A stretch of DNA of 64,000 nt from Pseudofrankia saprophytica (lineage in GTDB: Bacteria; Actinomycetota; Actinomycetes; Frankiales; Frankiaceae): assembly GCF_000235425.2 (NCBI RefSeq), contig NZ_KI912266.1, positions 612,273 through 676,272 of the forward strand, in the 5' to 3' direction. Position 1 is the stretch's first letter; every line of letters begins with the position of its first letter. Positions 5,048 to 61,912 of this stretch are shown here, one piece after another. The position numbers and the translations under genes were made by a program. The notes below the pieces were generated by a model that saw only the letters and a list, made by a program, of their open reading frames with translations, was not told the origin of the DNA and ran no database searches.

Positions 5048-5104
5048 GCCGCGGCCAGCCAGCGATACCGGACACGCTCCATCGATCCGAAGGGACCTCA
5101 AGGC

Positions 5105-5854: not shown

Positions 5855-6000
5855 CGTCCGGCCCTTCCGTTTCGCGGTCCAGACCACAACCGCGACCTCG
5901 GCCACCAAATAGCGCGATCTCGCGCCCCGGATCGAGGACCCCGGCTACTCGACCCTGTTCCTCGCCGACCACCACCTCGCACCAGGACCCGTCAGCGCCC
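5847..6000 (+). pseudogene. LLM class F420-dependent oxidoreductase, N-terminal fragment with in-frame stop
   Basis: In the frame of base 5853 the sequence reads DVRPFRFAVQTTTATSATK, then TAG at 5910-5912, then RDLAPRIEDPGYSTLFLADH. This is the start of a typical actinomycete LLM protein (family form: RPFRFAVQ...EWRDKARRIEDLGYSTLFLADH). TAG most simply replaces TGG (Trp). Similarity fades after about 6000 into low-complexity sequence, so only the first 50 or so codons survive. It overlaps the end of the SDR gene by 8 bp, suggesting it was once translationally coupled to that operon. Confidence 0.7.
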
Positions 6001-6111
6001 AGACCCTGCCGCGCCCACAGCGCCTCGCCCCATCGCCCCATCGCCCCAACATCATCGAGCCGGCCGGAGCGAGTACCGGCCGGGTTGGCCCGGCCGGTAC
6101 CGTGCCGTCGG

Positions 6112-7213: not shown

Positions 7214-7687
7214 CGCCTGCCCTGCCGGACCTCGAAACTGGCCTCCACGACCAGCTGCCCGACGGAAACACCCAGGGCAGCGCCTCCCCCTTCTACGAGG
7301 CGCCCCGCCGGGGGCACGCGATCGGGATCTTCCTGTTCGCGAAGCCTTCGGGTCCGCTCCCGGACTCCCGCGCCATGTTGCTCCGGGCCGAGCCCCGGAC
7401 CCCACGCCGAAAGCCGCGTGGATGCTGTACGAACCTGCCCGGGGCACTTTCATCACTTGGCCTGCACGTTGTGCCGCTCGCCGATTTCAAGCGAACAAGC
7501 GCTCCGGTCGCAGGCCTATTAACCTTCAGCGCCCGGCACTACGGCTCGGGGCGGGGGCGCCGAGCCGGTGACTCTGCGATCCACCTCGACCTCGGCACCA
7601 CCGGGAAACTGGCCGTCCGCGCCTGGCCGCGCCCGCCGGAGTAGAGCCCCGGCTTCGACACCGTCGCCCTGGCCCTCTTCAGGGGAT
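7214..7687. other. 474-bp stretch without a convincing gene
   Basis: It lies between the DUF2637 chimera and the DUF574 methyltransferase. Reading frames on both strands are Arg/Pro/Gly-rich shadow-type sequence with no family I recognise. Together with the pseudogenes to the left it looks like decayed sequence. It should also hold the promoter of the chimera, which I cannot locate. Confidence 0.5.
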
Positions 7688-8560: not shown

Positions 8561-8718
8561 AGCCCGCTCCCCATCGCCCGATTTCCCCTTTTCGGCAGCC
8601 TAGCGGTCACGGTGGCCCTTCTAGGCGGCGCATGGCTAGCTGGCGTAGCACTTGGCGAGGGTGGCGAAGGCCGCCTTGGGCTCCCAGGCCAGGCCAGGAT
8701 GGGTCTACGGTTGGTCAG

Positions 8719-9654
8719 TTATGGGCGGGGGTAGAGGCGGGTGAGGGTCGCGTATCCGGCGTTGAAGGCGCCGACTTCGTCGCTGGGTTTGTTCGTGGAG
8801 GTGCAGTCCTGGTTCTGTCGTGCGAGGGCTGGGTCGGGGATCTGTGGTTCGGTGTCGGTTTCGAGGAGTCCGCGGACTGTGCCGCCGGCGAAGCAGTTGG
8901 GGACGTTGAGGTTGGTGACCATGGTCTGGCGGGGTTTGGTGTCGGAGAGCAGGCTGGCGCGGTTCTTGGTGATCCAGTTCTGGACCAGTGTGACGGCGGG
9001 GGTGTAGTCGTAGGTGTCGCCGAGGCCGAGGCTGACGGCGAGGGCGGGGATGCCGCGTTGGGCGGCGGCGCGGGCGGCGCCGATGGTGCCGGACTCGTCG
9101 ACGTCGGGGCCGAGGGCTTGGCCTTCGTGGATGCCGGCGATGACGAGGTCGGGGTGCATGCCCAGGTCGTCGAGGGCGACGTTGACCGCGTCGGCGGGGA
9201 AGCCGTTCACCTCGGTGACGGGGGTGCCGTTGGACGCGTCGCTCTTGGTGTAGTTGACCGGGCCGTCGGTGGTCTTCCCGCCGGTGCCGCTTTGGTTCGC
9301 CGCCGGCGCGACGATCTCTATGGTGACGTCCCCGATGGTGGCCGACAGTCTGCCCACGCCCTGGACGATCGCCTCGATGCCTTCGGCGCCGACTCCGTCG
9401 TCGCTGGTGACGAGCACGTCGAGCACAGTGTCCGCCGAGTTGGCGGTTGGGTCGCCTGTCGCGGAGCCACCGGCGCCCGCGCCGCCGCCGGTGGCTGTGT
9501 CGGTGGCTGTGTCCGTCGGCGCCGCGGCGGCTGTGGCCGCGGTGGTGGACGTGGGCGCGGTCGTTCCCGCGTCCTCGGGCATACACGCGATGGCACCGAG
9601 CAGCACCGCGGCGCTGGCGATCGCGACGGACAGACGGACAGGCTTCCCGGGCAT
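8719..9654 (-). CDS. SurE-like 5'/3'-nucleotidase lipoprotein
   Basis: 311 aa from ATG 9654, which has AGGAGGG 5-6 nt upstream. Residues 1-25 form a lipoprotein signal (VAIASAAVLLGAIAC, lipobox LGAIAC), followed by a Thr/Ala-rich linker. The mature domain matches SurE: VLVTSDDGVGAEGI resembles the metal-binding LLTNDDGxxAPGI motif, and GIHEGQALGPDVDESGTIGA resembles GxNxGxNxGxxxxYSGTVGA. SurE is normally a cytoplasmic metal-dependent phosphatase; here Asn before DDG is Ser, and the protein should be exported and lipid-anchored. About 60 bp of non-coding DNA separates it from the secreted protein gene upstream. Confidence 0.85.
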   Translation of the reverse strand: MPGKPVRLSVAIASAAVLLGAIACMPEDAGTTAPTSTTAATAAAAPTDTATDTATGGGAGAGGSATGDPTANSADTVLDVLVTSDDGVGAEGIEAIVQGVGRLSATIGDVTIEIVAPAANQSGTGGKTTDGPVNYTKSDASNGTPVTEVNGFPADAVNVALDDLGMHPDLVIAGIHEGQALGPDVDESGTIGAARAAAQRGIPALAVSLGLGDTYDYTPAVTLVQNWITKNRASLLSDTKPRQTMVTNLNVPNCFAGGTVRGLLETDTEPQIPDPALARQNQDCTSTNKPSDEVGAFNAGYATLTRLYPRP

Positions 9655-9772
9655 GGGACCCTCCTGACGGTTGAGGTGTGAGGTCGTGTCGGCGCGGCGG
9701 GGCGCCACGGCGCCGTGAGCGGCCCGGCCCGGCGCCCCCCTGGACGCGCCGGGCCGGGCCGAGTCGCGGCGG

Positions 9773-10396
9773 TCAGCGGCCGTAGCGGCTGTAGCTCTCA
9801 GTGCCGGAGGTCGAGCTGGTCCCGTTGGTGTAGTACTCGGTGTTCTTGGCCCTGAGGGTGGAGCCGTTGGCCGCGGGAAGGATGTAGACCTTCTCGACCA
9901 GGCCGCTCTGGAAGTAGTAGGTCAGGGTGACCGACGTGCCCAGGTAGCCCCAGCTGATGTTCTTGGCGTAGCCCCAGTCGGTGTACTTGGTCCCGAGGCC
10001 CATCCAGGGGCGGGAGACGATCCGGAACTTGGCGGTGTTGAGGCGGTCGCAGTCGGTCTGCGAGATCGTGATGCTGGCGATGAACGCCTTCGAGTTGTTC
10101 GCCACCCAGACGCCGGCGTAGCCGTTGTCGCAGTTCGTCGACGCGCCGCCCGCGAACGCCGGGCCGCCCGTCGAGACGGCCTGCTCGACCGGCACCGGCG
10201 TCCCCGGCGCCGTGACCTCCGGCGCCGTCGGACCAGACGGCGGCGCCGACACCGCGGCCGACGCCGCGGCCGGGGGCGGCGCCGCGTCGCTGGTGCTCTC
10301 CGAGCTGCACGCGGCGGTAGCCAGGCCCAGTGCCAGGGCACTGACCGCCAGCGCGGCGCCGACCCGGCGGGAAAACGGAGCGAGAATGCGGTTCAC
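9773..10396 (-). CDS. Secreted lipoprotein of unknown function
   Basis: 207 aa from GTG 10396, chosen because AGGAGAAG lies about 6 nt upstream and a signal peptide follows at once. After the signal (AVSALALGLATAAC lipobox) comes an Ala/Pro/Ser-rich linker to about residue 75, then a compact domain with CDNGYAGVWVANNSKAF and a Cys in ISQTDCDRL, probably forming a disulfide, and Tyr/Trp/Thr-rich strands to the end. The mature domain looks beta-rich. I do not recognise a family. Confidence 0.7.
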   Translation of the reverse strand: MNRILAPFSRRVGAALAVSALALGLATAACSSESTSDAAPPPAAASAAVSAPPSGPTAPEVTAPGTPVPVEQAVSTGGPAFAGGASTNCDNGYAGVWVANNSKAFIASITISQTDCDRLNTAKFRIVSRPWMGLGTKYTDWGYAKNISWGYLGTSVTLTYYFQSGLVEKVYILPAANGSTLRAKNTEYYTNGTSSTSGTESYSRYGR

Positions 10397-10733
10397 GTTT
10401 ACTTCTCCTGTCGGCCGCGCTGCGTCTTTCGGCAGCGCTTTACGGTTACGGGGAGCACCCCGGGTCTCCTCGCCGAGCACCGGCCGGCGATGTGGTCGAT
10501 ATTCGCAAAGGCCGAGCTCCGGCCGGAAGGGAGCGCATTCCCGACCTGCCCGGAGTGGGATAGGAACAGGGCCCTACGATCGCCGGGACATCTCGGAAGA
10601 AGCCCAGTTGGAGGCCAGACGACGAGGCGAGACAGGGTTCCGCCTGACAATCTGTCGGCCAGCCGACACCACGGCCCAGAACCGCGCCCGGAAACCGCAC
10701 CGCTATTGGTCTTGGCGATCCGGGACCGCCTTC
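10397..10733. other. 337-bp intergenic region, no gene seen
   Basis: It lies between two minus-strand genes and should carry the promoter of the secreted protein gene at its left end. I see no conserved ORF, strong hairpin or repeat here. Confidence 0.5.
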
Positions 10734-11333
10734 TCATGACATCGCCGACGCTGTCGTGCTCCCGTCGACGATGGGATCGCCATCCGCCGGCGGTACGGGC
10801 ACTCGCCGCACGGCCAACGCGCCGAAACCGATGACGGTGGCGACGCTGTCCGCGATGCCGAGGGCGGGGATGTTGCCGATGTTCGCGATCGGGAACGCCA
10901 CCGCCGCGAGCCCGATCAGGATCGCCACCCACCGTGGCGCGACGCGTCGCAGCGCGATCGCGCACAGCAGGAGCATCAGCGGGAAGCCCAGCCCGAGTGG
11001 TTTGATCAGGACGGCCGCACCGTCCCGATCGACGAGGGAGACGTCGCCGAGCGCGACGTGGATCGCGTCGAAGCCGTAGGCGACGTTGCCGGCGATCCCG
11101 ATCGAGCCCACGACCAACAGCACGGCGGCGAACGTGCCGGACGTCCAGGTCGCGATCCGGATCAGCACGAGCGTGTAGGCGACGGCGCCGAGCACGTGGA
11201 AGATCCCGCCGGCCGAGTCGGACTCCCAGCCGCGCAGGGCGTAGAGGACGTTGGAGATCAGGTAGAGGACGGGCGCGACCACGAGGGACGCGTTCAGGAG
11301 CCGATCGGCGGGTGAGCCGGGGACGGCGTTCAC
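10734..11333 (-). CDS. Multi-pass membrane protein of unknown function
   Basis: 199 aa with five or six hydrophobic segments (VVAPVLYLISNVLYAL, HVLGAVAYTLVLIRIA, AVLLVVGSIGIAGNVAYGF, LGFPLMLLLCAIALRR, WVAILIGLAAVAFPIANIG, VATVIGFGALAV) and short loops. No catalytic motif is visible and I do not recognise the family. It is divergent from the histidine kinase gene; the two starts are separated by about 140 bp, so they probably share a promoter region, and the membrane protein may be a target of that two-component system. Confidence 0.72.
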   Translation of the reverse strand: MNAVPGSPADRLLNASLVVAPVLYLISNVLYALRGWESDSAGGIFHVLGAVAYTLVLIRIATWTSGTFAAVLLVVGSIGIAGNVAYGFDAIHVALGDVSLVDRDGAAVLIKPLGLGFPLMLLLCAIALRRVAPRWVAILIGLAAVAFPIANIGNIPALGIADSVATVIGFGALAVRRVPVPPADGDPIVDGSTTASAMS

Positions 11334-11473
11334 GGGAAGCTCCTTGCGGTCGGAGCGGATCGGTCCCGATCAGGGTCGCGGCGCGACCGCACCGGCACAT
11401 CCGGGCAGACCCGGCGGAATGGCAAGGGTTGTCCCGGTACCGCGCGCAGAGTGCGCTGTTGCACCATGTCGCT

Positions 11474-13411
11474 GTGCTTCGGATCTCGCCGCGTGTGGCG
11501 GGGCCGGCGTGCGGTGCCGCCGTCACGGCGCTGGTGGCGGGTGGGTTCGCCCTCGGAGCCTGGCTCGACAACCTGCACAACGGCCTGCTCGCCGTCGCCT
11601 TCACCGCCGTGGGGCTCTACGTCGTGTGGCAGCGCCCGGCCAACCGCGAGGCCTGGCTGTTCGTCGCCACCGGGGTGGCGCAGGCGGTGATGTTCGCGGC
11701 CCGCCAGTACGGCCTGCGCAGCCCCGCGCTGCCCGCCTCCTCCTGGGTCGGCTGGCTCGGGGTGTGGACGCTCCCGCTGGTGTTCGTGCTGACGGCGGTC
11801 ACGCTCATGAGCTTCCCGACCGGGCGCCTGCCCTCGCCGACGTGGCGCAGGGTCATCGGGGCGCTGGCCGTGCTGGGCGTCGCGCTCGCGGCGATGTCGG
11901 CGCTGTGGCCGGTCGAGTACGCCCGGGTGCCGCTGGCCGCGCCACATCCGCTGCACCTCCCGGGCGCCGCGGCCGCGGCCGACATCCATCCCATCGCGAT
12001 AGCTATCGGCTACCCGGCGTTCCAACTCGTCTGGGTGGTGTGCGCGATCAGGCGGCTGGCACGCGCGCAGGGCGACGAGTCCCGGCAGTTGCGCTGGTTC
12101 GTGTTCGCCGTGGCGGCGACGGGGGCGGTGATGGCCGCGGGGCTGATCGGGTGGCGCACCCCCGTGCCCGGGCTGCTGGCCGTGCCGCTGGTGCCGCTGG
12201 CAGCGGGAGCGGCCATCCTCAAGTACCGCCTCTACGACGTCGACCCGGTGATCAACGCGACGCTCGTCTGGGGCGCGATGGCGGCGGTGGTCACCCTCGG
12301 GTACGCCGTCGTGGTCGTCGCCGTCGGCAACCTGATCGGCGGTTCGGGCACGCTGCTCGCGCTGCTGGCCACCGCGCTGGTGGCCGTGGCGTTCGACCCG
12401 CTGCGCCGCCGCGCGCAGCGGGTGGCGGACCGGATCGTCTACGGCCGCCGCGCCACCCCGTACGAAGCCCTGTCACGGCTGTCCGCCCAGCTGACGGGCC
12501 CGTCCAGCGGACTGCTCGACGGGCTGTGTGCCACGGTGGCCGAAGGCACGGGCGCGCGGCAGGTCGTGCTGTGGACGGGATCCGCGGACGAGCTGCGCGC
12601 GGTGTCGGCGTGGCCGGCGGGGCGTCCGGACGAGGTACGGACCCTCGACGAGCTGACGCTCGGCGGGCGCGCGGTGCCGGTGGCACACGGTGGCCGGACC
12701 GTCGGCGCGCTCGCCGTGACGACGGGGGCGCGCGGCTCGTTGACCTCCCAGGAACGCGGTCTGCTCGCCGACCTCGCCGCCCAGGCGGGCCTCGTCCTGG
12801 AGCTGCGCGCGAGCGCCCAGCGGCTGGTCGCCGCGGGCGACGAGGCCCGGCGCCGGCTGGAGCGCGACCTGCACGACGGCGCCCAACAGCGGCTGGTCAC
12901 CGTCGCGATGGAGCTGGGCGCGCTCGCGGGGGCCGCCGACGGCGCCACCGCGTTCGCCGGACGGGCCGAGGCGGCCCGCCAGCAACTGCTGCAGGCGACC
13001 GCCGAGCTGCGGGAGACCGCGCGCGGACTGCACCCGGCCGTGCTCACCCAGGACGGGCTGGAGGCCGCGCTCGGCTACCTCGCCGACCGCTCCGCCCTTC
13101 CGGTGCGGCTGCACGTCACCGTGGACCGCCGGCTGGCACCCGCCGTGGAGGCCACGGCGTACTTCGTCGTCAGCGAGGGACTCACGAACGCGGCCAGGCA
13201 CGCCGGCGCCCGGATCACGACCGTCACCGCCGAGCTGACCGCGCAGGGGCTGCTGCTGGAGGTCCGCGACGACGGCCGAGGCGGGGCGCAGGCGCGCCCG
13301 GGATCCGGCCTGGAAGGACTCACCGACCGCCTCGCCGCCCTCGACGCCAGGCTGGTCGTCGAGACCGGACTCGGCGGAACTCGGCTGCGGACGGTGATCC
13401 CATGCGGGTGA
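11474..13411 (+). CDS. NarL-type sensor histidine kinase with N-terminal membrane domain
   Basis: About 645 aa. Multiple membrane helices occupy roughly residues 10-290, followed by a GAF-like sensory region. The HisKA_3 dimerisation box (RRRLERDLHDGAQQRLVTVA) has its phosphoacceptor at about His467. The HATPase_c domain has FVVSEGLTNAARHAGA (N box) and the G boxes DDGRGG and GSGLEGLTDRL. The start is uncertain: GTG 11474 gives a direct entry into the first helix, while TTG 11459 and codons back to 11312 are in frame but none has a clear Shine-Dalgarno. Its stop overlaps the response regulator start by 10 bp, so the two are translationally coupled. Confidence 0.87.
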   Translation: MLRISPRVAGPACGAAVTALVAGGFALGAWLDNLHNGLLAVAFTAVGLYVVWQRPANREAWLFVATGVAQAVMFAARQYGLRSPALPASSWVGWLGVWTLPLVFVLTAVTLMSFPTGRLPSPTWRRVIGALAVLGVALAAMSALWPVEYARVPLAAPHPLHLPGAAAAADIHPIAIAIGYPAFQLVWVVCAIRRLARAQGDESRQLRWFVFAVAATGAVMAAGLIGWRTPVPGLLAVPLVPLAAGAAILKYRLYDVDPVINATLVWGAMAAVVTLGYAVVVVAVGNLIGGSGTLLALLATALVAVAFDPLRRRAQRVADRIVYGRRATPYEALSRLSAQLTGPSSGLLDGLCATVAEGTGARQVVLWTGSADELRAVSAWPAGRPDEVRTLDELTLGGRAVPVAHGGRTVGALAVTTGARGSLTSQERGLLADLAAQAGLVLELRASAQRLVAAGDEARRRLERDLHDGAQQRLVTVAMELGALAGAADGATAFAGRAEAARQQLLQATAELRETARGLHPAVLTQDGLEAALGYLADRSALPVRLHVTVDRRLAPAVEATAYFVVSEGLTNAARHAGARITTVTAELTAQGLLLEVRDDGRGGAQARPGSGLEGLTDRLAALDARLVVETGLGGTRLRTVIPCG

Positions 13412-43427: not shown

Positions 43428-43689
43428 CTCGGCCGAGTAGGGCGGAGCGTCGTGTCAGGCGTCAGGGGCACGGCCAGCACCGTTTCGTGACCCTGAGGTC
43501 TGACCGGACGCCCGGGATCCCTCAGGAGGCGAAGCCGACCTCGCCGACCTTGCCCGAATCAACATCATTCCTGTTGGGGTCATCCTTGGGCCATCCACAG
43601 CCAGTTTTAGATCTTGGAGACGACTCAGGGGCCCGACCCGAAGATCCACTCTCGCGAGTGAACCAGCAGGTCAGACCCCTGATCAAGGG

Positions 43690-43779
43690 CGGAGGCTCGG
43701 GGATTTGAACCCCGGATGGGTTGTAGACCCAAACCGCATTAGCAGTGCGGCGCCATAGACCGGACTAGGCGAAGCCTCC
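43690..43779 (-). tRNA. tRNA-Ser(GCU)
   Basis: The minus strand folds as a serine tRNA of about 90 nt: acceptor GGAGGCT/AGCCTCC, anticodon stem-loop CCGCACTGCTAATGCGG with anticodon GCT, a long variable arm as in class II tRNAs, T-loop GGTTCAAATCC, and discriminator G73. The 3' CCA is not encoded. It reads AGC/AGU codons. Its 5' end faces the type VII-like locus, whose first gene starts 158 bp away on the other strand. Confidence 0.95.
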
Positions 43780-43936: not shown

Positions 43937-46900
43937 ATGCGAGTGGTACTGAGCGTTGCCGATCCGGTTCGCGGGGTCAGCACGGACGTCATGGTGGAGG
44001 CGGACGAGGAGACACCTGTCCGAGAGGTGGGGCGGGCGCTCGCCGGCCGCCTCCGCGCCGGGGCGGACCGTGCGCCCGTCGTGTTCGTCGACGGGCGCAC
44101 GGTGGACGGACGGCTCGATCTGCGGGAGTCGCCGCTGGTCGACGGGGTCGTGGTCGGCCTGGGGTCGGCGGCGGGGTGCCCCGCCGTGGGCGAGCCGGTC
44201 GGGCTGGTGGAGGCGCGGGTCGTCGGCGGACCGGGTGCCGGCGTGGTGCACCGGCTCGGGCCGGGCCGGTTTCTGATCGGCACCGGGCCGGACTGCGCCG
44301 TGCCGCTCGATGACCCGACGGTCGCGGACGTCGCGCTGGAGCTCATCGTCGGGGCGGATGGTTCGTGCGCCGTCGTCCCGGCGGGGGCGGGCGACGGGTT
44401 CGACGAGGTGCTCCTCGACGGGGAGCCGTTGCCGGCGGCCGGACGGCTGCTTCCTCTGCCGCTCGTCGCCGAGCGCGACGATGCCGCGCCGTTGCGGCCC
44501 GCGCCGATGTTGGCGGTGGGGGCGGTGTTGTTGACCGTGGCGGTCGCCGGGCCGCAGGATCTGGCGACCCGGCCGGCCGAGGACGGCCACCGGCGCGACG
44601 TGAACCGGCCGCCCCGGATGTCCCCGCCGCGGCCCGACGTCCGCTTCCGGCTGCCGCCCGCGCCCGCGCGACCCGAACGCCGCCCGATGCCGATCCTCGG
44701 GGCGCTGCTGCCGGCGGTGGGCGCGGGCGCGATGGCGTTCGCCCTGCACATCTACTACCTGCTGCTGCTCGCGCTGCTGGCACCGCTGGGCATGGTCGCC
44801 TCGCACCTGAGCGGCGGCCGGCTGGCCCGCCGGGCCCATCGCCGCGACCTCGCCGAGCACCGGCGCCGGCTGGCCGAGACGGAACGCGAGATCCACGCGG
44901 CGCTGGCGCGCGAGTGCGCCGAGCGGCGCCTGGGCGCACCGGACCCGGCCCAGGTGCTGCTCACCGCGGTCGGGCCGCGGCGACGGCTGTGGGAACGCCG
45001 CCGTGGCGATCCGGACTACCTGCGGCTGCGGCTCGGCACCGCCGACCTGCCGAGCGACCTGACGGTCGAGGACCCCGCCGATCAGCGACGGCATGACGGG
45101 CGCCAGCTACAGGGGTGGAGCCGGACCGTGCCGGACGTCCCGGTCACCGTGGCGCTCGCGGAGCACGGCGTGCTCGGTGTCGCCGGCCGTGGCGAGCTGC
45201 CGCGGGTGGTCGGCTGCTGGCTGCTCGCCCAGGCCGCCGTCCTGCACAGCCCGCTGGACCTGGTCGTCTACCTGCTGACCTGGTCGGACGGCGCGTCGGC
45301 CTGGGAGTGGGCTCGCTGGCTGCCGCATGCCCGCCCGTCGGCTGAGACTGACGGCCAGGAGGCCGCCCTCCGGGTCGGCCTGGACGAGGTCAGCAGGGCG
45401 CGCCGGATCGGGGAGCTGGCCCAGCTGGTCGCCGCACGGACCGCGGATCGGGGTGGCCGCCCCGGTGCCCCCGGCTCCCACGGCGGCACCCCCGTTGGAC
45501 TGCGGGGGCCGTCAGGCGCGCTCCCCGGTGAGCCGGACGTGCTCGTGATCCTCGACGGGGCGCGGGCGCTGCGCGGGTTGCCCGGCATGGTGTCGGTGCT
45601 GCGCGACGGGCCGGCGGTCGGGGTGTATTCGATCTGCCTGGACCGCGACGTCCGGCTGCTGCCCGCCGAGTGCCAGGCGGTGGCGGAGCAGGTCCCGAGC
45701 GGCCTGCGCGTCAGCCAGGCGAGTGGGGTCGTCGTCGACGACGCCCGGCCGGACCTGGTCGCGACCGCGGCGACGCTGGACCCGTCCGGCCAGACGCTCG
45801 ATGAGTCGGTCGTCACGGGTGGCGCGGCGGCCTGGTGCGAGCGGCTGGCCCGCGGGCTCGCCGCGCTGCGCGACGTCGGCGGCGATCGGGACGAGTCGAC
45901 GCTGCCCGCGGCGGCGCGGCTGCTCGACGTCCTCGCCCTCGATCCCCCGACGCCGGCCGCGGTCGCCGCCCGCTGGGCGGCAGCGCCCGGCGGGGACACC
46001 TCCTTCACGGTCGGGGTGGGGCACGGCGGGCCGTTCACGCTGGACCTGCGGCGGGATGGGCCGCACGGGCTGATCGCCGGCACGACCGGGTCGGGAAAGT
46101 CGGAGCTGCTGCAGTCGATCGTCGCGTCGCTCGCCGTGGCGAACCGGCCGGACGCGCTTACGTTCGTGCTCGTCGATTACAAAGGCGGAAGCGCTTTCGC
46201 CGACTGCATCGACCTTCCGCACTGCGTGGGACTCGTCACCGACCTGGACAGCCACCTGGTCGCCCGGGCACTCACCTCCCTGAACGCGGAACTTCGCCGA
46301 CGCGAGCACCTGCTCGCCGCCGCCGGCGCGAAGGACCTCGAGGACTATGACCGCCTGACCGGTCTTTCCCGTCCGAGTGCTTCTGCCCGTCCAGGTATCT
46401 CCGGCGCCGCCGGCCGGATCCCCGAGTTGCCGTGGCTGCCCGATCTACCACGGCCACCCGAGCTACCACGGCCACCCGAGCTACCACGGCTACCCGCGCC
46501 GCCACGGCTACCGCGGCTGGTGATCGTGATCGACGAGTTCGCCTCGCTGGCGAGGGAGCTGCCGGAGTTCGTCGCCGGTCTGGTGAACCTCGCGCAGCGC
46601 GGCCGGTCGCTGGGCATTCACCTGCTGCTCGCCACCCAGCGGCCCGCCGGCGTGGTCTCCCCGGAGATCAGGGCGAACACGAACCTGCGGATCGGCCTGC
46701 GGATGACCGACGCCGGCGAAAGCGCCGACGTGCTCGACGCGCCGAACGCCGCCCGGATCGGCCGGTCGACACCGGGACGGGCATTCGCGCGGCTCGGGCA
46801 CGCGTCGCTGGTGGCGTTCCAGACCGGCCGCGTCGGCGGCCGGCCGACGTCGCCGGGCCCAGCGACGGATGGAGGCGCGGGTGGCGGCGGGGGCGGCGCC

Positions 46901-49108
46901 GCGGGCGGGGCCGCGCGGGCGCCGTGGGTGGTCGAGCTGCCATGGGCGGCGCTGGGCGGGCCGCTTCCCCGCCGGCCGACGGAGGCGGCGGACGACGGCG
47001 CCGCCAGCGACCTGCGGCTGCTCGTCGACGCGGTGCGCGCCGCGGCCGAGCTGACCGGTGTCCCCCGGCAGCCTGGCCCATGGCTGCCGCCGCTGCCGCC
47101 GGTGGTCACGTTGGGCGACCTACTCGCCGACGCGGCACGCACACCGGCCGACCCGAGCGCCGCCCGTAGCGCCGTCCGCGGCGCCGCTGGCGGTGAGCAC
47201 GCGCGGCTGGCACCGGTCCCGGTCGGGCTGTCGGACCTGCCGGACGACCAGGACCAGCGTCCCTACCTGGTCGACCTCGACGGGCACGGTCACCTGCTGG
47301 TCGTCGGGTCAGCGCGATCCGGCCGGTCGACCGTGCTGCGGACGTTCGCGGGCGCGCTCGCGGCCACCGTGTCGTCCCGCGACGCTCATCTGTTCGGTCT
47401 CGACTGCGGCAACAACGCGCTGCTGGCTCTCACCGCGCTGCCGCACACCGGCGCCGTGGTCAGCGCGGACGCGCCCGAGCGGGTGGAACGGCTGTTCGCC
47501 CGGCTGCGCGCGGAGGTCGCCGGCCGGCAGGAGGCGTTCGCCAGCCGTGGCTACGCCGACCTGGGCGAGCAGCGCGCGGCCGAGCCGGCGGCCGCGCTGC
47601 CCTATCTGGTGCTGTTGCTCGACAGGTTCGAGGGCTTCCTGACCGCCTTCGAGAACGTCGACGGCGGACGGCTCGTCGACGAGCTGTCGCGACTGTTACG
47701 CGAAGGCCCGGCGGTCGGCCTGCGGGTGCTGGTCACCGCCGACCGGCGCGGGCTGACCGGCCGGGTCGCGTCCGCGATCGAGAACCGGCTGGTGCTGCGC
47801 CTCGCCGACCGGGGCGACTATCCCCTGGTTGGCCTGGCGAGCTCAGCCGTGCCGGACGGCGTGACGCCGGGACGCGGGTTCCGGCTCGGCGACGCCGTCG
47901 AGAACGCCCTGGGAGGCGCCGGCGGAGACCCTGGGCCACCTGGGTCTCGGCCACCTGGTGCGGCCCCGGCGGTCGAGACCCAGGTCGCGCTGCTCGCCCC
48001 CGATCCGGCCGGCAGGGCGCAGGTGGCCGCGCTCGCCCGGCTCGGCGGGTGGGCGGCCGCGCGGGATGGCGTGCCGCCCGGCCCGGCGACCGGTCCGCGC
48101 ACCGACCAGCGCCGGCCGATGCGGATCGACCCCCTGCCGTCCCGGATCACGCTGGCCGAGGCGGCAGCGCTCCCGGGGTCGCCATGGCCGGCGCTGGGAC
48201 GTGGCGGTGCGCCGGAGACACCGACACCGGCGCGGCGGGGTCTCGCGGAGGCGCCCGGAGGGGCTGGAACGGCGGCACCGTGGGCGGCCACGGCCACGGC
48301 ACCGGCAACGCCACCGCCACCTCCAGTGCCGCTGCTGGGTCTGGTCGGGGTCGGTGGCGACGAGCTGGGTCCGCTGATCGTGGACCTGGCCGCGGACGGC
48401 CCTGGCTTCACGGTCGCCGGGCCCGCGCGCTCCGGGCGCAGCACCGCGTTGGTCACCCTGGCGACGACCCTGCTCGCCGGCGGAACCCGGCTGGTCCTGA
48501 TCACGCCCCGGCCCTCGCCGCTGCGCGGACTGGCCGGCGCGCCGGGCGTGCTCGGCTCGCTGGGGGCCGACGCCGCCGCCGATGCCGACGAGGTGGCTCG
48601 GCTGCTGCCGGCCGCCGGCCGGCGCGACGACGCGCGGGCCGTGGCGGTGATGGTCGACGACGCGGAGCTGCTCGCCGACATGCCGCTGGCCGGCTGGCTC
48701 GCCGATTTCCTGCGCCGGGCGCGCGACACCGGGTCCGCGCTGGTCGCAGCCGGGACCACCGAGGATCTACTCGGCCAGTTCCGCGGATTCCTGGTGGACC
48801 TGCGCCGCTCCGGATCCGGACTGCTGCTCTGGCCCGGCGGACCGGCGGACGGCGAGTTGTTCGGCCGGCGGCTGTCCCGCGCGGCCGGAGGCGCCCGTCC
48901 CCCGGGGCGGGGGCTGTACTTCCGGCGCGGCCTGCCAGCACCCATCCAGGTCCAGGTCCCGGTCGGGGCCGGAGCCGGGGATGCCCAGATCGGGGGGTCT
49001 CACCCCCGAATGACGTACCGCCCTCGATCACCTACGCTCGCCCCGCCACCCGCCCTCGACGTCTACCGAGACGCGGGCGCCTGGATCCCCTTTCCCCGCG
49101 AACGGTGA
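43937..49108 (+). CDS. FHA-FtsK/SpoIIIE ATPase, EssC/EccC-like type VII secretion protein
   Basis: 1723 aa. Order: ubiquitin-like/EsaB-type strand pattern (about 1-80), FHA-like domain (about 95-185; GPGRFLIGTGPDCAVPLDDP), two membrane helices (about 250-290), then three FtsK-type ATPase modules. Module 1 has intact Walker A GTTGSGKSEL (Lys721) and Walker B LVIVIDEFASL, with a repeated Pro-Leu-Glu-Arg linker between them. Modules 2 and 3 have Arg for the Walker A Lys (R1130 in GSARSGRST and R1501 in GPARSGRST), as expected for degenerate regulatory sites. The N-terminal FHA resembles Firmicutes EssC more than mycobacterial EccC. It would drive export of the WXG100 proteins encoded just downstream. 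Confidence 0.9.
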   Translation: MRVVLSVADPVRGVSTDVMVEADEETPVREVGRALAGRLRAGADRAPVVFVDGRTVDGRLDLRESPLVDGVVVGLGSAAGCPAVGEPVGLVEARVVGGPGAGVVHRLGPGRFLIGTGPDCAVPLDDPTVADVALELIVGADGSCAVVPAGAGDGFDEVLLDGEPLPAAGRLLPLPLVAERDDAAPLRPAPMLAVGAVLLTVAVAGPQDLATRPAEDGHRRDVNRPPRMSPPRPDVRFRLPPAPARPERRPMPILGALLPAVGAGAMAFALHIYYLLLLALLAPLGMVASHLSGGRLARRAHRRDLAEHRRRLAETEREIHAALARECAERRLGAPDPAQVLLTAVGPRRRLWERRRGDPDYLRLRLGTADLPSDLTVEDPADQRRHDGRQLQGWSRTVPDVPVTVALAEHGVLGVAGRGELPRVVGCWLLAQAAVLHSPLDLVVYLLTWSDGASAWEWARWLPHARPSAETDGQEAALRVGLDEVSRARRIGELAQLVAARTADRGGRPGAPGSHGGTPVGLRGPSGALPGEPDVLVILDGARALRGLPGMVSVLRDGPAVGVYSICLDRDVRLLPAECQAVAEQVPSGLRVSQASGVVVDDARPDLVATAATLDPSGQTLDESVVTGGAAAWCERLARGLAALRDVGGDRDESTLPAAARLLDVLALDPPTPAAVAARWAAAPGGDTSFTVGVGHGGPFTLDLRRDGPHGLIAGTTGSGKSELLQSIVASLAVANRPDALTFVLVDYKGGSAFADCIDLPHCVGLVTDLDSHLVARALTSLNAELRRREHLLAAAGAKDLEDYDRLTGLSRPSASARPGISGAAGRIPELPWLPDLPRPPELPRPPELPRLPAPPRLPRLVIVIDEFASLARELPEFVAGLVNLAQRGRSLGIHLLLATQRPAGVVSPEIRANTNLRIGLRMTDAGESADVLDAPNAARIGRSTPGRAFARLGHASLVAFQTGRVGGRPTSPGPATDGGAGGGGGGAAGGAARAPWVVELPWAALGGPLPRRPTEAADDGAASDLRLLVDAVRAAAELTGVPRQPGPWLPPLPPVVTLGDLLADAARTPADPSAARSAVRGAAGGEHARLAPVPVGLSDLPDDQDQRPYLVDLDGHGHLLVVGSARSGRSTVLRTFAGALAATVSSRDAHLFGLDCGNNALLALTALPHTGAVVSADAPERVERLFARLRAEVAGRQEAFASRGYADLGEQRAAEPAAALPYLVLLLDRFEGFLTAFENVDGGRLVDELSRLLREGPAVGLRVLVTADRRGLTGRVASAIENRLVLRLADRGDYPLVGLASSAVPDGVTPGRGFRLGDAVENALGGAGGDPGPPGSRPPGAAPAVETQVALLAPDPAGRAQVAALARLGGWAAARDGVPPGPATGPRTDQRRPMRIDPLPSRITLAEAAALPGSPWPALGRGGAPETPTPARRGLAEAPGGAGTAAPWAATATAPATPPPPPVPLLGLVGVGGDELGPLIVDLAADGPGFTVAGPARSGRSTALVTLATTLLAGGTRLVLITPRPSPLRGLAGAPGVLGSLGADAAADADEVARLLPAAGRRDDARAVAVMVDDAELLADMPLAGWLADFLRRARDTGSALVAAGTTEDLLGQFRGFLVDLRRSGSGLLLWPGGPADGELFGRRLSRAAGGARPPGRGLYFRRGLPAPIQVQVPVGAGAGDAQIGGSHPRMTYRPRSPTLAPPPALDVYRDAGAWIPFPRER

Positions 49109-49120
49109 AGGAGCCGCCTC

Positions 49121-49390
49121 ATGAGAACGGTGACGACCCCGGCGGCGCAGGCCGCGGCCCGCGGCCTCGGCGACGAGCTGCCCGGCCTTGCCACGATCAC
49201 GACCGACCTGAGCCGTCACGGCGGCGTGCTGGCCGACCCGAAGAACTGGGAGGGCCCCAAGGCCCAGTCCTTCCGCACGCAGGTGTGGCCGGAGGTGGAG
49301 ACCACCCTGACGAACCTGCGGACCAACCTCGACGAGCTCGCGAGATCCATAGCGGAGATCAACCGCCGGATCGCCGACGCGGGCGCCTGA
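49121..49390 (+). CDS. WXG100-like protein (EsxA/EsxB-type), first of pair
   Basis: 89 aa, the standard size. Helix-turn-helix hairpin with the WXG motif in KNWEGPKAQSFR near residue 44. The first helix spans about 10-40 and the second about 50-88. No signal peptide. It starts 12 bp after the ATPase gene with AAGGAG upstream. Such proteins form four-helix dimers and are exported by type VII systems. The C-terminal YxxxD/E export signal is not evident (RIADAGA ends the protein); the signal may lie in the partner or elsewhere. Confidence 0.85.
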   Translation: MRTVTTPAAQAAARGLGDELPGLATITTDLSRHGGVLADPKNWEGPKAQSFRTQVWPEVETTLTNLRTNLDELARSIAEINRRIADAGA

Positions 49391-49474
49391 AGCTACGCCG
49401 GCCAGCCCTCGACGCCGTCCCGCTCGACGTTCGAGGACTCCACGTTCAAGGACTCGACGCCCAAGGAGATACCC

Positions 49475-49759
49475 ATGTCCGCCTCGGATGGGACCGTCCG
49501 CGGCACGCCGGAGGCCGTCACCGCGGTCGCCGGGCTCGGTGCCCTCGTCAACGGACCGCTGCTGAGAAAGTTCGACGACCTGCGTCGGCACGCGAACGTG
49601 CTCACCGACCCGGACAACTGGGACGGTCGCACGGCCACCGACTTCCGTTCGACCGTCTGGCCGTCCTATGAGCGGGCGCTCACCGACCTGCACGCACAGC
49701 TCGGCCGGCTGCGCACCCGGCTTGGCGAGATTCAGGACGACATCCAGAGCGCCGGCTAG
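49475..49759 (+). CDS. WXG100-like protein, second of pair
   Basis: 94 aa. WXG turn in DNWDGRTATDFRSTVWP near residue 49, flanked by two amphipathic helices (KFDDLRRHANVL and YERALTDLHAQLGRLRTRLG). ATG 49475 has AAGGAG upstream. It probably heterodimerises with the 89-aa protein 84 bp upstream; the gap holds three imperfect 15-bp direct repeats (GGACTC-rich, about 49425-49468). No obvious YxxxD/E tail. Confidence 0.85.
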   Translation: MSASDGTVRGTPEAVTAVAGLGALVNGPLLRKFDDLRRHANVLTDPDNWDGRTATDFRSTVWPSYERALTDLHAQLGRLRTRLGEIQDDIQSAG

Positions 49760-50016
49760 CCTCCCCACCAATCGGGTCTTTCGCGCCGGCTGGCCGGGCA
49801 GGGGCCCGACAGGTGTTGGCACATCCGGCCGATAGCACCGGGCAGCCACACCAGCCCGCCGGGAAATCCGAGCTTCTCGCGGAAGGTTCTGGGTAGAGGA
49901 CTGGCTGCCTGGTACCAGGTCGTCGGGCTACAACACCCTTGTCGGCATACACCACGATGACGCACAGTGATCAGACGGCGAACACGGTGATCAGACGGCG
50001 GGAAGGAGAGTCGCGA

Positions 50017-52947
50017 GTGGCCTTCGGGGGCGTGGGCAGGCGAAGGAACGGACGGCATGCCCGGCCGGCGCGGCCGAGCATCCCAGACCGGTGGCCCGAC
50101 GATGGGACGGCGCCGAGCCATCCGGGCCCGCCGTCGACCGGCGGCGGCGCCGAACCCGTCGCGCGCCAGCCGGCGCCAAGCCGAGGGCCGGGTGGCCGGT
50201 CGCTGCTTGCCGCCGGTCTGGTGGCCGCGCTGACCAGGCACGGCATGTCGACGCTGGCGGCCCGGCACCGCGCGGTCGGCGAGTCCCTGCGGCTGGCGGC
50301 CGACGTCGAGGCCGCGAATTTCCTCGACCGCGCCACCCGGCTGCTGTCCGCGGAGCTGGCCGCGCAGGGCAGGCCCCTGCCGCCGGTGTTCGCGGCGACG
50401 CTCACCGACGCCGCGTTGATCCTGCACCTGGCGCCGGCGCCGCTCGACCCGCCGCCCACGCCGTGGTGGAAGGCCGGCGCGCCCGGCACGTGGCGGATCG
50501 CACGTCTACCCGAGGCGCCGGACGGGCTGCCGGCCGCCGCGGTCGCGGCGATCCCGCCCGCGGTCCCGGCACCGTTCCCCGGCCTGGCGACCGTCGGGCA
50601 TGACGGGAACCGGGCCAGGATTCTCGTCGACATCGAGGGAGCGCCAGGCATCATCGCGATCGGCGGTGATGAGGGACGCGCCCGCGAGATCGCCATGTCG
50701 ATCGCCGTCGAACTGGCCACCAACCGGTGGTCGGACCAGCTGCGCATCCACCTGGTCGGATTCCCCGACGACCCGCCCGCGGTCGCGCCGGACCGGCTGC
50801 GCGCGGCCGCGACCGTCGACGACGCGCTGGCCGAGCTCGCGGCGCACGAGGAGGTGCGAGCCCGCGCGACGGGTTCGCCCTGGGATGGCTCCGACGCGGC
50901 GGGCGTGCTGCGAGGCCGGCAGGAGGCCAGGACCCAGGCGCTCTGGACGCCTGACCTGCTGGTGCTGGCCAGTACACCGGACGAGGCCGACGCGGCTGCG
51001 CTGGCGCGGTTCGCGCGCGGGCGGGGCCAGGCCGTCGGCGTGATCGTCGTCGGCGAGCTGGCGGCGGCCCGCTGGGTGTTCACCGCCACCCGGGACGGCC
51101 GGCTCTCGCTGGGAGTGCTCGGCATCGAGGTCACGGCGCAGCTTCTGCCTGTCGCGCAGCACGCGGTACTCGTCGACCTGTTCCGTTCCGTGGGCGGTGA
51201 CCCACCGGGTGACCCGTCGGGCGGCCCGCCGGCCGCGACCGACGAGGCCGGGCCGATTCCCCCACCGATCGGGGGCCGGGAGCGCGTCGCCGAAGACGGC
51301 GTCGGCCCTACCCGATCGGGCGACCGGACGCCTCCGGCCAGACCGGCCGTCGCTGCCAGGCCCATCGCCCCGGCGAGGCCCATCGCCCCGGCCAGGCTCG
51401 CCGCCCCCGCCGAGCCCGTCGCACCTCCCGGGCCCGGCGCACCGGCCAAGCCTGTCGCCCCGACCAGGCCCGCCGCCCCCGCCGCGCCTCCCAGGCCCGT
51501 CGCCCCCGGGGGCGGACCGCGGACCGCGGCCGCCACGTTCCTGCCCGCGGAACCGTTCCTGCCGACGGTGCCCGACGAGAGCCCACCCACCCAGCAGGCG
51601 CCTGTCGACCCCACCCGACCCGACGCTTCCTCCCCAGACCTGGGAGTTCCCGCCGCGCCACCCGCCGGTCTGGCTCCGCCGACGCGTCCCAGCCCCGCCG
51701 CGCCACCGCCCGGCCCGCCGGCGCCGGCGCCGGCGCCGACCGATCCGGGCACGACCGTTGGCCCGACCGATACCGACTCCGAGGCCCGCCCGACGCCGCC
51801 CGGCGCACCGGGCACGCTACCCAGCGGGGGCGGCCCCGCCGCTCCCCCGCCGACGGACTTCCCCGGCCGGCCGCCAGCCAGGCGGCCGCTGTCGGTGCTG
51901 GTTCCCACGACCCGTCACCGCGCTCCGCCGGACCCGGACGACACGGCCCCACCCGGCCTCGGGCAGCGGCACCGGGTGGCCGGGCTCCCCAACTCCGGCC
52001 CGCGGCCCGCCCCGGCGGGCCCGGTGTCGCCGCTCCACCTTCCCTACGCGGCCGCCACGCCACCCGCCGAGTTCGCCGGCCCGGGCGACGCGGAGATCCA
52101 GGTGCTCGGCCGGCCCGCCGTCCACGCACCGGGACCGGTGGCACGCGACCAGGTCGAGCCGTTGACGGAGCTAATCGTCTATCTGGCCCTGCATCCGGAC
52201 GGCGCACACCCGCGGGCGCTCTCGGCCGCGCTCCGGCAGGAGGGCGCCAGGAGCGCGAGCTCGGGCGGGGCCACTCCCGACGACGTCACGGCGGCCTCCC
52301 TCGGTCGCGCCAGAGACTGGCTCGGGACCGGCCCATCCGGCCATCCCCGGCTGGTCGCCGGCGCCGACGGGCGGCTACGGCTCGGCCAGGACGTCCACTG
52401 CGACTGGTGGGCGTTCGCCGCCCACGCCCATCGGGCGAGCCAGCCACCGAGGGCAGCCTCCAGTGGCACCGCCATCGCGACGGTCGGCAACGAGGCCGAC
52501 GCGGAGCTCGCGGCGGCACTGGGCCTGGTCACCGGCCCGCTCCTGGCGGACCTCCCGGCCGGCAGGTATGGCTGGCTGCGCTCGACCGGGCTCGAGGCCG
52601 GCCTGCGCGCGGCGGTCGTCGACGTCGCCCACCGCCTGGCCGAACGCAGCCTGCAGGCGGGCGACACCGCGACCGCGATGGCCGCGTGCCGGACCGGGCT
52701 TCGCGCCGTCCCGGCCGCCGAGTCCCTCTGGCGCGACCTGCTGCGCACGGTCGCCGCCCGCGGCGACCGTCACACCCTCGAGGCCGTCGCCGCCGAGATG
52801 TACCGGGCGCTGCCAGCCGCGACGGCGTCCCGGCCCGGAGGCGGCCTGCCGCGTGGGCGCCGTGCCCAGAACCGTCCGACCGAGCCCGAGACGAACGCCC
52901 TCGTCAAGGCCCTCCTGCCCGGCTACCGCCACCGCGACCGGCGCTAG
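50017..52947 (+). CDS. Large BTAD-domain protein at the type VII locus
   Basis: 976 aa from GTG 50017, chosen for GGAAGGAGAG 6 nt upstream; the frame is open to 49939. Residues about 20-70 are disordered and basic; a hydrophobic LLAAGLVAAL lies near 70. A folded region (about 80-395) resembles the alpha/beta part of actinomycete BTAD membrane regulators (RILVDIEGAPGIIAIGGDEG). A Pro/Ala-rich disordered stretch (about 400-680) follows. The C-terminus (about 690-960) is a winged-helix plus BTAD module: DAEIQVLGRPAVHAPGPVAR, LIVYLALHPDGAHPRALSAA, then helical repeats. It may couple export status to transcription, or act as a structural partner. Confidence 0.72.
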   Translation: MAFGGVGRRRNGRHARPARPSIPDRWPDDGTAPSHPGPPSTGGGAEPVARQPAPSRGPGGRSLLAAGLVAALTRHGMSTLAARHRAVGESLRLAADVEAANFLDRATRLLSAELAAQGRPLPPVFAATLTDAALILHLAPAPLDPPPTPWWKAGAPGTWRIARLPEAPDGLPAAAVAAIPPAVPAPFPGLATVGHDGNRARILVDIEGAPGIIAIGGDEGRAREIAMSIAVELATNRWSDQLRIHLVGFPDDPPAVAPDRLRAAATVDDALAELAAHEEVRARATGSPWDGSDAAGVLRGRQEARTQALWTPDLLVLASTPDEADAAALARFARGRGQAVGVIVVGELAAARWVFTATRDGRLSLGVLGIEVTAQLLPVAQHAVLVDLFRSVGGDPPGDPSGGPPAATDEAGPIPPPIGGRERVAEDGVGPTRSGDRTPPARPAVAARPIAPARPIAPARLAAPAEPVAPPGPGAPAKPVAPTRPAAPAAPPRPVAPGGGPRTAAATFLPAEPFLPTVPDESPPTQQAPVDPTRPDASSPDLGVPAAPPAGLAPPTRPSPAAPPPGPPAPAPAPTDPGTTVGPTDTDSEARPTPPGAPGTLPSGGGPAAPPPTDFPGRPPARRPLSVLVPTTRHRAPPDPDDTAPPGLGQRHRVAGLPNSGPRPAPAGPVSPLHLPYAAATPPAEFAGPGDAEIQVLGRPAVHAPGPVARDQVEPLTELIVYLALHPDGAHPRALSAALRQEGARSASSGGATPDDVTAASLGRARDWLGTGPSGHPRLVAGADGRLRLGQDVHCDWWAFAAHAHRASQPPRAASSGTAIATVGNEADAELAAALGLVTGPLLADLPAGRYGWLRSTGLEAGLRAAVVDVAHRLAERSLQAGDTATAMAACRTGLRAVPAAESLWRDLLRTVAARGDRHTLEAVAAEMYRALPAATASRPGGGLPRGRRAQNRPTEPETNALVKALLPGYRHRDRR

Positions 52948-60318: not shown

Positions 60319-61644
60319 TCACACCTTCCGCCGGATCCATTGGGAGATTCCCCACCCCGCCCGCTGGGCCCCGTCAGCGGGCGGAAAGGACTGGCGGTGC
60401 GGCTCGTCGCTCATCCCGTGGCGCCGCGCGATCTCGGCGAACATCGCGTTGTGCGGGCGACGGGCGCGCGCCGCCCGGAGCAGGCGACGATATGCGTCCT
60501 GGACGATTCCGGAGTCAAGGTTGTCGAATACCTGGCTCCACCAGATCTCGGGGTTGCTGCCGTGCCAGCTGGGTCGCCGCCCACGGGGAAAGTCGATGGA
60601 GTCGAGCACCATCCCGGCCTCGGCCGCCTCATGGAATATCTCGGCGAGAGTGATACACAGCCGATGCCGGTCGTCGCCGGAAAGAATGAGCCCCGGCTCT
60701 CCCACCGTCGCTGGTCCTTGCCGCTCAGACGCGAGGTATCCGAGGTCTCCCGCCGTCCCCCCGGATGACGGACCTGTTCGCGGCCCGTCATCCGGCGGAA
60801 CGGCGGCCAGCGCGTCGATGATCCGGGGGAGGTCCCGGAAACGGTGCTGGACGAGCGCGGCGAGAGCGTCGCCGAGTGCCGGGAGCAGCCGCGCGAGCTC
60901 GTCCGGCGAGCCCGAGACCGCGAGCACCTGCCAACCCCGGAAGCCAGCCGCGATGTCTTCCGCCTGCGCGGTCACCAGACGCAGCTCGTCTTTGCCGGCC
61001 AGCATCGGAAGAGCCTTTCCGATCAGGCGCCGGACGTATCCGGCCGCCGATCGGAGCTGGCCGCTCAGCTCCCGCCGGACTGCCACCTGGTCGATCCCCG
61101 CCAGATCCGCGGCCACCCGCGCACGGTCAAGGTCCACGACGAGCTCGGCGGCACGTAACAGGCTGTAGGCGGCGAAGTAGTCAGCGTTCCAGTTGTAAAT
61201 CTGACGCTGCACCAGCAGGCACATCCCGACCAGGGCGAGGTAGCCCACCATCAGCCCGGCCAGCTTCAGTTCTGGCTGTTCTTCCGCCGCCGATCGCCAA
61301 GGTCCCATTCTCCACAGCTGGCCGGTCGCGGCGACGATGACGCCAAGGCTCGCGACGACGAACCCGGGGGCCACGAGGGCGAGCGCCCGGCGGGCGACCT
61401 GGTCGCGGCAGGCGAGCGCGGCCGACACGTCGGCCACTGGCAGCCATCGGCCCGTCCGCTCGAACGCGGTGACGACCGAGTCCAGCCGGGCCTTCGTTCT
61501 CCTCGCCGCTCGTCCACCTCTGCGTGGCCTCCTGCCGGCCAGCGGCATAAGGACGACGGAGACGCCATCCAGCATCAGCGCGATGGCCATCAACGTGATG
61601 CCCGATATAAACAGCTCACTCGCCGTGTCGGCCGGCGCCGTCAT
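60319..61644 (-). CDS. Membrane protein with C-terminal effector-associated-like domain
   Basis: 441 aa from ATG 61644; GTG 61722 in the same frame would add 26 residues. An N-terminal helix (LFISGITLMAIALMLDGVSV) is followed by an Arg-rich loop, then two or three more helices (VAPGFVVASLGVIVAATG and LAGLMVGYLALVGMCLLVQR). A helical cytoplasmic region comes next (about 200-330). The C-terminus (about 345-430) reads LAEIFHEAAEAGMVLDSIDF, RGRRPSWHGSNPEIWWSQVF and NLDSGIVQDAYRRLLRAARA, resembling the small helical effector-associated (death-like adaptor) domains of actinobacterial conflict systems. No effector gene is adjacent. Function unknown. Confidence 0.65.
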   Translation of the reverse strand: MTAPADTASELFISGITLMAIALMLDGVSVVLMPLAGRRPRRGGRAARRTKARLDSVVTAFERTGRWLPVADVSAALACRDQVARRALALVAPGFVVASLGVIVAATGQLWRMGPWRSAAEEQPELKLAGLMVGYLALVGMCLLVQRQIYNWNADYFAAYSLLRAAELVVDLDRARVAADLAGIDQVAVRRELSGQLRSAAGYVRRLIGKALPMLAGKDELRLVTAQAEDIAAGFRGWQVLAVSGSPDELARLLPALGDALAALVQHRFRDLPRIIDALAAVPPDDGPRTGPSSGGTAGDLGYLASERQGPATVGEPGLILSGDDRHRLCITLAEIFHEAAEAGMVLDSIDFPRGRRPSWHGSNPEIWWSQVFDNLDSGIVQDAYRRLLRAARARRPHNAMFAEIARRHGMSDEPHRQSFPPADGAQRAGWGISQWIRRKV

Positions 61645-61912
61645 CCCGGCGAATGCCCGTGGCCGGCCGTCGGCGGCGCCTCCGGCGGATCTGCGTCGGG
61701 ACCGTGCCGCACTCGGACGCACCTCCCCGAAGCCAGGCTCGCGCCCGTCCAGCGGGCCATTCCCGCTCGTTTATATCGGAGGTGTTGGCGCCTTCCTCAG
61801 GCCGATGAGTACCGGGTGCGAGACGAGGGTTGTGACGAGGGGTCTCTCGCGGGCCGGACGGCCACCGCTCGGCGGTGCTCGCCCAGCTCAGCCGCTCAGC
61901 CGCTCGCCCAGC

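Follow-up and report, generated by a model that had tools for sequence, protein, structure and literature searches.

The 2024 catalogue of type VII secretion subtypes lists only T7SSa and T7SSd for the Actinomycetota and mentions neither Frankia nor BTAD (PMC11217815). T7SSd, described from Olsenella and Bifidobacterium, comprises the kinase TsdD together with TsdH and TsdI, and its FHA phosphothreonine residues are conserved (Garrett et al. 2024, PMC11217815). In ESX-5, the ubiquitin-like domain of EccD acts at the first ATPase domain, as discussed in the same catalogue (PMC11217815), while T7SSg and T7SSh of the Bacillota are adjacent to Tad genes and have ATPases without FHA and a separate ubiquitin-like protein (PMC11217815). 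The Frankiales have been reported to carry ESX-4, Frankia alni ACN14a included (PMC4791881), and ESX is said, in a title cited in PMC4182475, to modulate development in Streptomyces scabies.

The locus described here lies in a 64,000-nucleotide stretch (the window) of the genome of Pseudofrankia saprophytica, which measures 9.98 Mb and belongs to a family that includes Pseudofrankia and Frankia.

Organization and conservation of the locus

Genes for an FtsK/EccC-type ATPase, two WXG100-like proteins and a BTAD protein follow one another in that order, all on the forward strand (Table 1). All four open reading frames of the first-pass annotation were present as it had given them, and its description of a compact type VII-like locus held good, with profile matches to an FtsK/EccC-type ATPase and WXG100-like genes. 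The intergenic gaps are 12 bp between the ATPase and first WXG genes, 84 bp between the two WXG genes and 257 bp before the BTAD gene. The BTAD open reading frame can be extended upstream as far as 49939, and its GTG is preceded by a good ribosome-binding site; a scan for promoters and terminators of the locus gave nothing usable. The tRNA-Ser(GCT) gene holds the left-neighbour place in 5 of 5 Pseudofrankia-type loci checked and is a fixed Pseudofrankia neighbour, outside the machine, while the right neighbour of the block is an AMP-binding enzyme gene. Also present in the window (60319-61722, reverse strand) is a gene for an EAD1 (Effector-associated domain 1) protein, EAD1 being a domain of predicted conflict and signalling systems.

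Table 1. Features of the locus; positions are counted from the first letter of the window.
Feature	Position	Strand	Remarks
tRNA-Ser(GCT)	43688..43779	-	directly upstream of ATPase gene
FtsK/EccC-type ATPase	43937..49108	+	ATG start, 1,723 aa
Ubiquitin-like (beta-grasp) domain of ATPase	43937..44176	+	N-terminal; profile searches and AlphaFold model
FHA domain (single) of ATPase	44198..44536	+	without the G-R-S...S-x-x-H phosphothreonine residues
Two predicted transmembrane segments of ATPase	44687..44821	+	hydropathy; aligns with EccC3/YukB membrane region
EccC/YukB-like domain (D0/DUF) preceding first ATPase domain	44966..45853	+	profile search
ATPase domain 1	45986..46858	+	intact Walker A GTTGSGKS (46079-46102), Walker B IDEF
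ATPase domain 2	47171..47899	+	Walker A GSARSGRS, Arg replaces Lys
ATPase domain 3	48326..49105	+	Walker A GPARSGRS, Arg replaces Lys
WXG100-like protein 1	49121..49390	+	89 aa; AAGGAG ahead of ATG
WXG100-like protein 2	49475..49759	+	94 aa; AAGGAG ahead of ATG
BTAD protein	50017..52947	+	976 aa; GTG start after GGAAGGAG
Predicted FtsK/EccC-type RecA-like domain of BTAD protein, Walker-less (pseudo-ATPase)	50260..51198	+	AlphaFold pTM 0.89; Foldseek
Proline-rich, fast-evolving linker of BTAD protein	51199..52053	+	dN/dS
EmbR/SARP-like winged helix and BTAD (TPR-like) module	52054..52944	+	profile search, Pfam

The gene order of the block was kept in Pseudofrankia asymbiotica, Pseudofrankia sp. 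BMG5.36, Frankia nepalensis and Frankia genomes, with more cases in genera g1 and g2. In g2 and g6 the second WXG gene and the BTAD gene may be separated by other genes or by as much as 2.5 kb, and in genus g7 just one of five loci was seen to have WXG genes, the pair not being found beside the ATPase gene at L058-L061. Against two relatives, the ATPase and WXG genes gave dN/dS values of 0.23-0.36 and all conserved parts of the four genes 0.23-0.41; only the proline-rich linker of the BTAD protein was higher (0.63, against L001). On these values, the four genes are maintained under purifying selection.

The matches of the two small proteins to WXG100 profiles are weak (E=3e-3 and 1e-2) and below the Pfam and NCBIfam cut-offs, with the WXG motif present. 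The YxxxD/E tail, already noted as lacking in the first-pass annotation, is absent from both and from all 16 close homologues of each. Beside the block there is no gene for an evident toxin or other cargo, and no known channel protein (EccB, EccD, EccE, EsaA or EssB) was found near it.

The annotation had also stated that no EccB, EccD, EccE or mycosin gene was in the window, in agreement with the absence of EccB, EccE and mycosin among the 20 open reading frames at 27-64 kb (Pfam scan) and of EccD across the whole window (phmmer). YukD/EccD had no match in the entire host genome, with the same profile (PF08817) detecting EccD elsewhere at E of about 1e-20 as a positive control. Pfam further revealed no EsaA, EssA, EssB or EsaB in the scanned flanks and no Ser/Thr kinase in the flanks. 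Linkage of EccB, EccD or mycosin genes to the block in relatives, which the annotation had named as refuting its reading, was seen in none of those inspected, and neither was linkage of EccE. One genome (G001) has an ESX-4-like locus with EccB, WXG genes and an EccC-type ATPase (L213 7699-15400) far from the block, and the two coexist in that genome.

Domains of the ATPase

The ATPase is matched by Pfam FtsK_SpoIIIE (E=3e-56) and by both the EssC and EccC models of NCBIfam, each below its own cut-off. Matches to EccC and YukB/EssC structures extend over its membrane region, D0 and NTPase domains, the D0/DUF profile matching EccC 4nh0 (E=1.5e-20) as well as EccC5 and YukB. The Walker A and B motifs of domain 1 are intact in 17 of 17 homologues aligned.

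The FHA and ubiquitin-like regions previously proposed at the N-terminus were recovered both in profile searches and in an AlphaFold model. The N-terminal family profile matched FHA structures with E down to 3e-7, ubiquitin designs at E=1e-3 and the EccD protein Snm4 at E=0.09, and Pfam YukD matched the ubiquitin-like region of one homologue (E=0.0098). In the AlphaFold model, the head runs strand-strand-helix-strands, the beta-grasp order, at a pLDDT of about 90, and leads into an FHA fold. In a control search of 195 other (decoy) open reading frames, the profile of the ubiquitin-like domain alone placed two same-clade ATPases first, followed by EccD proteins (E=7e-4, 2e-3 and 2e-2), of which that at L184 is annotated eccD and the others were confirmed by Pfam. 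EsaB/YukD was also considered as the nearest kin of the domain and was rejected, the hhalign match being weak (E=0.09) compared with that to EccD (E=0.0018). The ubiquitin-like domain, whose profile picks out EccD, is kin of that of EccD, so that part of the "missing" EccD is fused to the ATPase. The phosphothreonine motif of the FHA domain is missing in 26 of 27 aligned homologues, the sole exception being an Rhs-linked paralogue.

Phylogeny, distribution and neighbours of the ATPase

Two trees were built with EccC and EssC references, the first of 72 rows and the second of domain 1 only with FtsK as outgroup. The block ATPase fell outside both the EccC and the EssC clade in each, forming a separate clade beside them with SH-aLRT 100 in the first tree and an ultrafast bootstrap of 91 in the second, where the clade was monophyletic in 94% of 200 bootstrap trees. 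With the FtsK root, the branching order of the block, EccC and EssC clades is an unsupported three-way split, with neither EccC nor EssC favoured as the nearer sister. The earlier suggestion that the N-terminal region resembles EssC rather than EccC was not supported, given this third clade, the single FHA domain and a ubiquitin-like part that resembles EccD.

All 35 Frankiaceae genomes contained an ATPase match, and by our own count an ATPase of this branch occurs in about 69 of the 148 genomes of the class sample at E<=1e-31, a cut-off that excludes the EccC-type matches of that list (1e-20 to 1e-25). The neighbours of clade ATPases vary, and may be WXG100 genes, an Rhs protein, a "T7SS-secreted protein" or Tad genes. 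On plasmids of Streptomyces atratus and Curtobacterium (L015 4456-15444 and L016 6583-15414, both forward), one or more WXG100 genes lie 5' of an ATPase of the same type, with a "T7SS-secreted protein" of about 2,030 aa near that of S. atratus. In some Frankiaceae, a PAS-GGDEF diguanylate cyclase gene lies directly 5' of the ATPase gene (L057 11815-12879, reverse; L068 6265-7497, forward), which may hint at c-di-GMP control.

The host genome has further ATPases. A second member of the clade with a ubiquitin-FHA head (L020, C2:1503000-1522999; 1082-6256, forward) has intact FHA phosphothreonine residues and lies near a gene for a 1,724-aa Rhs protein (8284-13002, reverse) that begins WXG-like and ends in an HYD1 ADP-ribosyltransferase-type region; genomes G029 (L165) and G031 (L164) show Rhs linkage too. 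A third clade ATPase of 1,669 aa (L019, C1:3850000-3869999; 7409-12418, forward) has no adjoining WXG or BTAD gene, a WXG-like gene being 7 kb off. Two further ATPases, EccC-like and about 1,000 aa long, sit on very long tree branches (L021 8086-12722, forward; L023 8225-12929, reverse); next to each are encoded an unknown protein of medium size and a small helical protein that is WXG-like, and ATPase matches of the same size recur in most Frankiaceae. No EccB, EccD, EccE or mycosin was found among the scanned neighbours of the genome's other EccC-like ATPases.

The BTAD protein and its linkage to Tad pilus genes

Pfam BTAD matches the last protein of the block just below its cut-off (E=4e-4), and the profile of its C-terminal 297 aa matches EmbR 2fez over winged helix and BTAD (E=2.6e-5), with the winged helix N-terminal to BTAD as in SARP/EmbR activators. 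Foldseek returned TcpA, FtsK, EssC and EccC as the best matches of the first half, with E from 7e-7 and TM-scores of 0.4-0.55, mostly 0.4-0.5, and this half is without the Walker A Lys. When its profile was compared with the ATPase domains of the locus, domain 2 was best and in the same register, the match being weak (E=7e-4, probability 26%). The first half is thus predicted from the model to be an FtsK/EccC-type pseudo-ATPase.

Homologues of the BTAD protein are annotated as LysM proteins and stand last in Tad pilus operons of Streptomyces and Microbacterium plasmids, and the homology to this family spans both the pseudo-ATPase and the winged-helix/BTAD parts. Judged by hydropathy only, the Frankia homologues have several transmembrane segments, in addition to a LysM region, and that of Frankia nepalensis keeps such segments, while the Pseudofrankia and window proteins have none and no LysM. 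The transmembrane/LysM part has been lost in the window's lineage. A literature search on BTAD/LysM-Tad proteins, or on the Frankia locus, found no paper.

The first-pass annotation called the BTAD protein fixed at the locus, and its gene is kept with the block in Frankiaceae and linked more widely. In 29 genomes of the class sample the ATPase and BTAD genes lie 4-39 kb apart on one contig, with one genome (G118) in which they are unlinked and a few in which they are on separate contigs. With the two genes within 40 kb in genomes of 3-11 Mb, the linkage is far beyond chance. At L119-L121 a TadZ-CpaF-TadB-TadC-TadE-TadG-BTAD run is followed directly by the ATPase, except that at L119 and L120 a WXG100 gene of 90-91 aa lies between BTAD and ATPase, giving an unbroken Tad-BTAD-WXG-ATPase series. 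Comparable neighbourhoods were seen in Nonomuraea and in families f17, f18 and f26.

Tad genes were sought beside the block in the window genome and not found, their orthologues being absent from the genome. Its own Tad locus (C1:118-121 kb) is of another lineage, with a CpaF of 163 bits, compared with 704 bits (76% identity) for the orthologous CpaF of G015; this is the one family member that has it, together with TadB, TadC and TadG on the same short contig. From the divergent CpaF of the host and the restriction of the orthologue to G015, it seems that the pilus half was lost from the window's lineage and that the ATPase, WXG pair and regulator-like protein were kept.

Interpretation and rival explanations

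The locus may be a minimal type VII-like export module whose ATPase belongs to a branch so far found in Actinomycetota, a reading to which we give an even chance; that the WXG pair is exported, and that there is any link to transcription or a pilus, we infer. The kept gene order, the close ATPase-BTAD linkage in 29 genomes, the Tad-BTAD-WXG-ATPase loci, the EccD-like head, the intact domain 1, the separate clade, the RecA-like fold of the BTAD protein's first half and the purifying selection all count for it. Against it count the lack of a cargo or channel gene nearby, WXG proteins that are tailless and below profile cut-offs, the WXG pair not found beside the ATPase in several g7 genomes, the loss of the Tad linkage in the host's own lineage, and a pseudo-ATPase assignment for which the model gives TM-scores of 0.4-0.55 and sequence support is weak. 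In such a module, the WXG proteins would pair as a heterodimer, bind the ATPase and serve as its substrate or activator, while the fused ubiquitin-like domain would work in cis on ATPase domain 1 as that of EccD does in trans, and the FHA domain would be a docking surface independent of phosphorylation. The BTAD protein might dock on the ATPase ring via its pseudo-ATPase domain as a subunit for assembly or regulation; it would in most actinomycetes be anchored in membrane and wall beside the Tad pilus, and in the window's lineage, with the anchor and matching Tad genes lost, it is probably cytoplasmic.

The first-pass annotation suggested export coupled to gene expression, which would set the secretion ATPase and WXG substrates under a transcription activator. 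The match to EmbR across winged helix and BTAD in the C-terminal 297 aa speaks for this, and the window-lineage protein, without transmembrane segments and LysM, could reach DNA; however, in relatives the protein is membrane-anchored, carries LysM and is part of a Tad operon, half of it is a predicted pseudo-ATPase, and it has no known DNA target. As the full account of the locus, this is unlikely, and for the BTAD protein itself a structural or regulatory role within the machine is as likely as such coupling. It is similarly improbable that the ATPase and WXG proteins are accessories of envelope or pilus (Tad-type) biogenesis, or of hyphal or spore development, and not an effector exporter, the Pseudofrankia set being a remnant with a new role. 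The linkage of BTAD and ATPase genes to Tad operons in Nonomuraea and families f17, f18, f19 and f26 is consistent with this role, as are the reported effect of ESX on Streptomyces scabies development (title cited in PMC4182475) and the lack of a cargo gene, but many clade ATPases adjoin WXG100 or toxin-like genes without Tad, and the window genome is without Tad orthologues.

That the block is an ESX-4 locus decayed by loss of EccB, EccD, EccE and mycosin was rejected as very improbable, even though Frankiales are reported to have ESX-4 (PMC4791881) and in G001 an EccC-type gene is adjoined by EccB and WXG genes. The block of that genome occupies a different site from its ESX-4-like locus, the block ATPase is of another clade with a different head, no relative seen has EccB, EccD or mycosin adjoining the block, and the genes are under purifying selection. 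Slighter still is the chance that the ATPase is an FtsK/TraB-like DNA translocase beside two small helical proteins by coincidence: it does have an FtsK_SpoIIIE domain, and protein cargo is so far only inferred, but its similarity to EccC/YukB runs along the membrane, D0, D1 and D2 regions, and WXG genes are conserved beside it.

Beyond the export reading preferred above, we tentatively suggest, with rather less than even confidence, a distinct and unnamed type VII subtype of Actinomycetes, in which a ubiquitin-FHA-ATPase fusion and WXG100 proteins would work with a Tad pilus via a state-sensing pseudo-ATPase/SARP fusion protein, Frankiaceae having lost the corresponding Tad genes and retained the export half. 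Nearly half of the class genomes sampled have an ATPase of this branch, yet the branch is not described in the 2024 catalogue (PMC11217815). Its fused head is an alternative to a ubiquitin-like component that stands alone as a protein or belongs to EccD, and the locus makes the smallest working type VII exporter a testable question. It also adds a separate instance of the association of type VII and Tad genes that has been noted, so far unexplained, in Bacillota, and the joining of a pseudo-EccC domain to a SARP-like module makes the BTAD protein a concrete candidate for connecting a secretion or pilus machine with transcription.

Comparison with known type VII systems

The block is a member of none of T7SSa, T7SSb, T7SSd and T7SSg/h, each falling short in one or more of the features tested. 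Like T7SSa (ESX), it has an EccC-type membrane ATPase with several NTPase domains, a non-identical WXG100 pair (EsxA/EsxB there) and a ubiquitin-like domain that is kin of EccD's; unlike T7SSa, it is without EccB, the EccD membrane part, EccE and mycosin (MycP) and without YxxxD/E tails, and its ATPase, of a separate clade, is fused to the ubiquitin-like domain and FHA. With T7SSb (Ess/Yuk) it shares an FHA domain at the ATPase N-terminus and degenerate later NTPase domains, but there EssC carries a pair of FHA domains and EsaB is a separate protein, whereas the block has one FHA domain and a ubiquitin-like head, no EsaA, EssA or EssB, and an ATPase clade of its own.

T7SSd resembles the block in occurring in Actinomycetota, in its FHA ATPase and in having no separate ubiquitin-like gene, and differs in that the block has no Ser/Thr kinase in its flanks by Pfam and lacks the FHA phosphothreonine residues. 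A candidate T7SSd-like system from the Actinomycetota outside the class (L195 3076-14899, forward) combines WXG100 and LXG-domain genes with an FtsK-type ATPase; this is the sole LXG-linked actinobacterial ATPase in the trees, which include no certified TsdC, and it groups with EssC, apart from the block.

T7SSg and T7SSh are similar in that a WXG100-ATPase set is associated with a Tad pilus, as in the block's relatives of other families, but no LysM-BTAD protein is reported there and the window locus has no adjacent Tad genes. The LysM-BTAD proteins of Tad operons are homologous to the window protein in both conserved parts, whereas the window protein is without LysM, transmembrane segments and adjacent Tad genes. 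Set against EmbR/SARP proteins, it has a pseudo-ATPase domain that EmbR does not, joined to a C-terminus in which winged helix and BTAD are alike.
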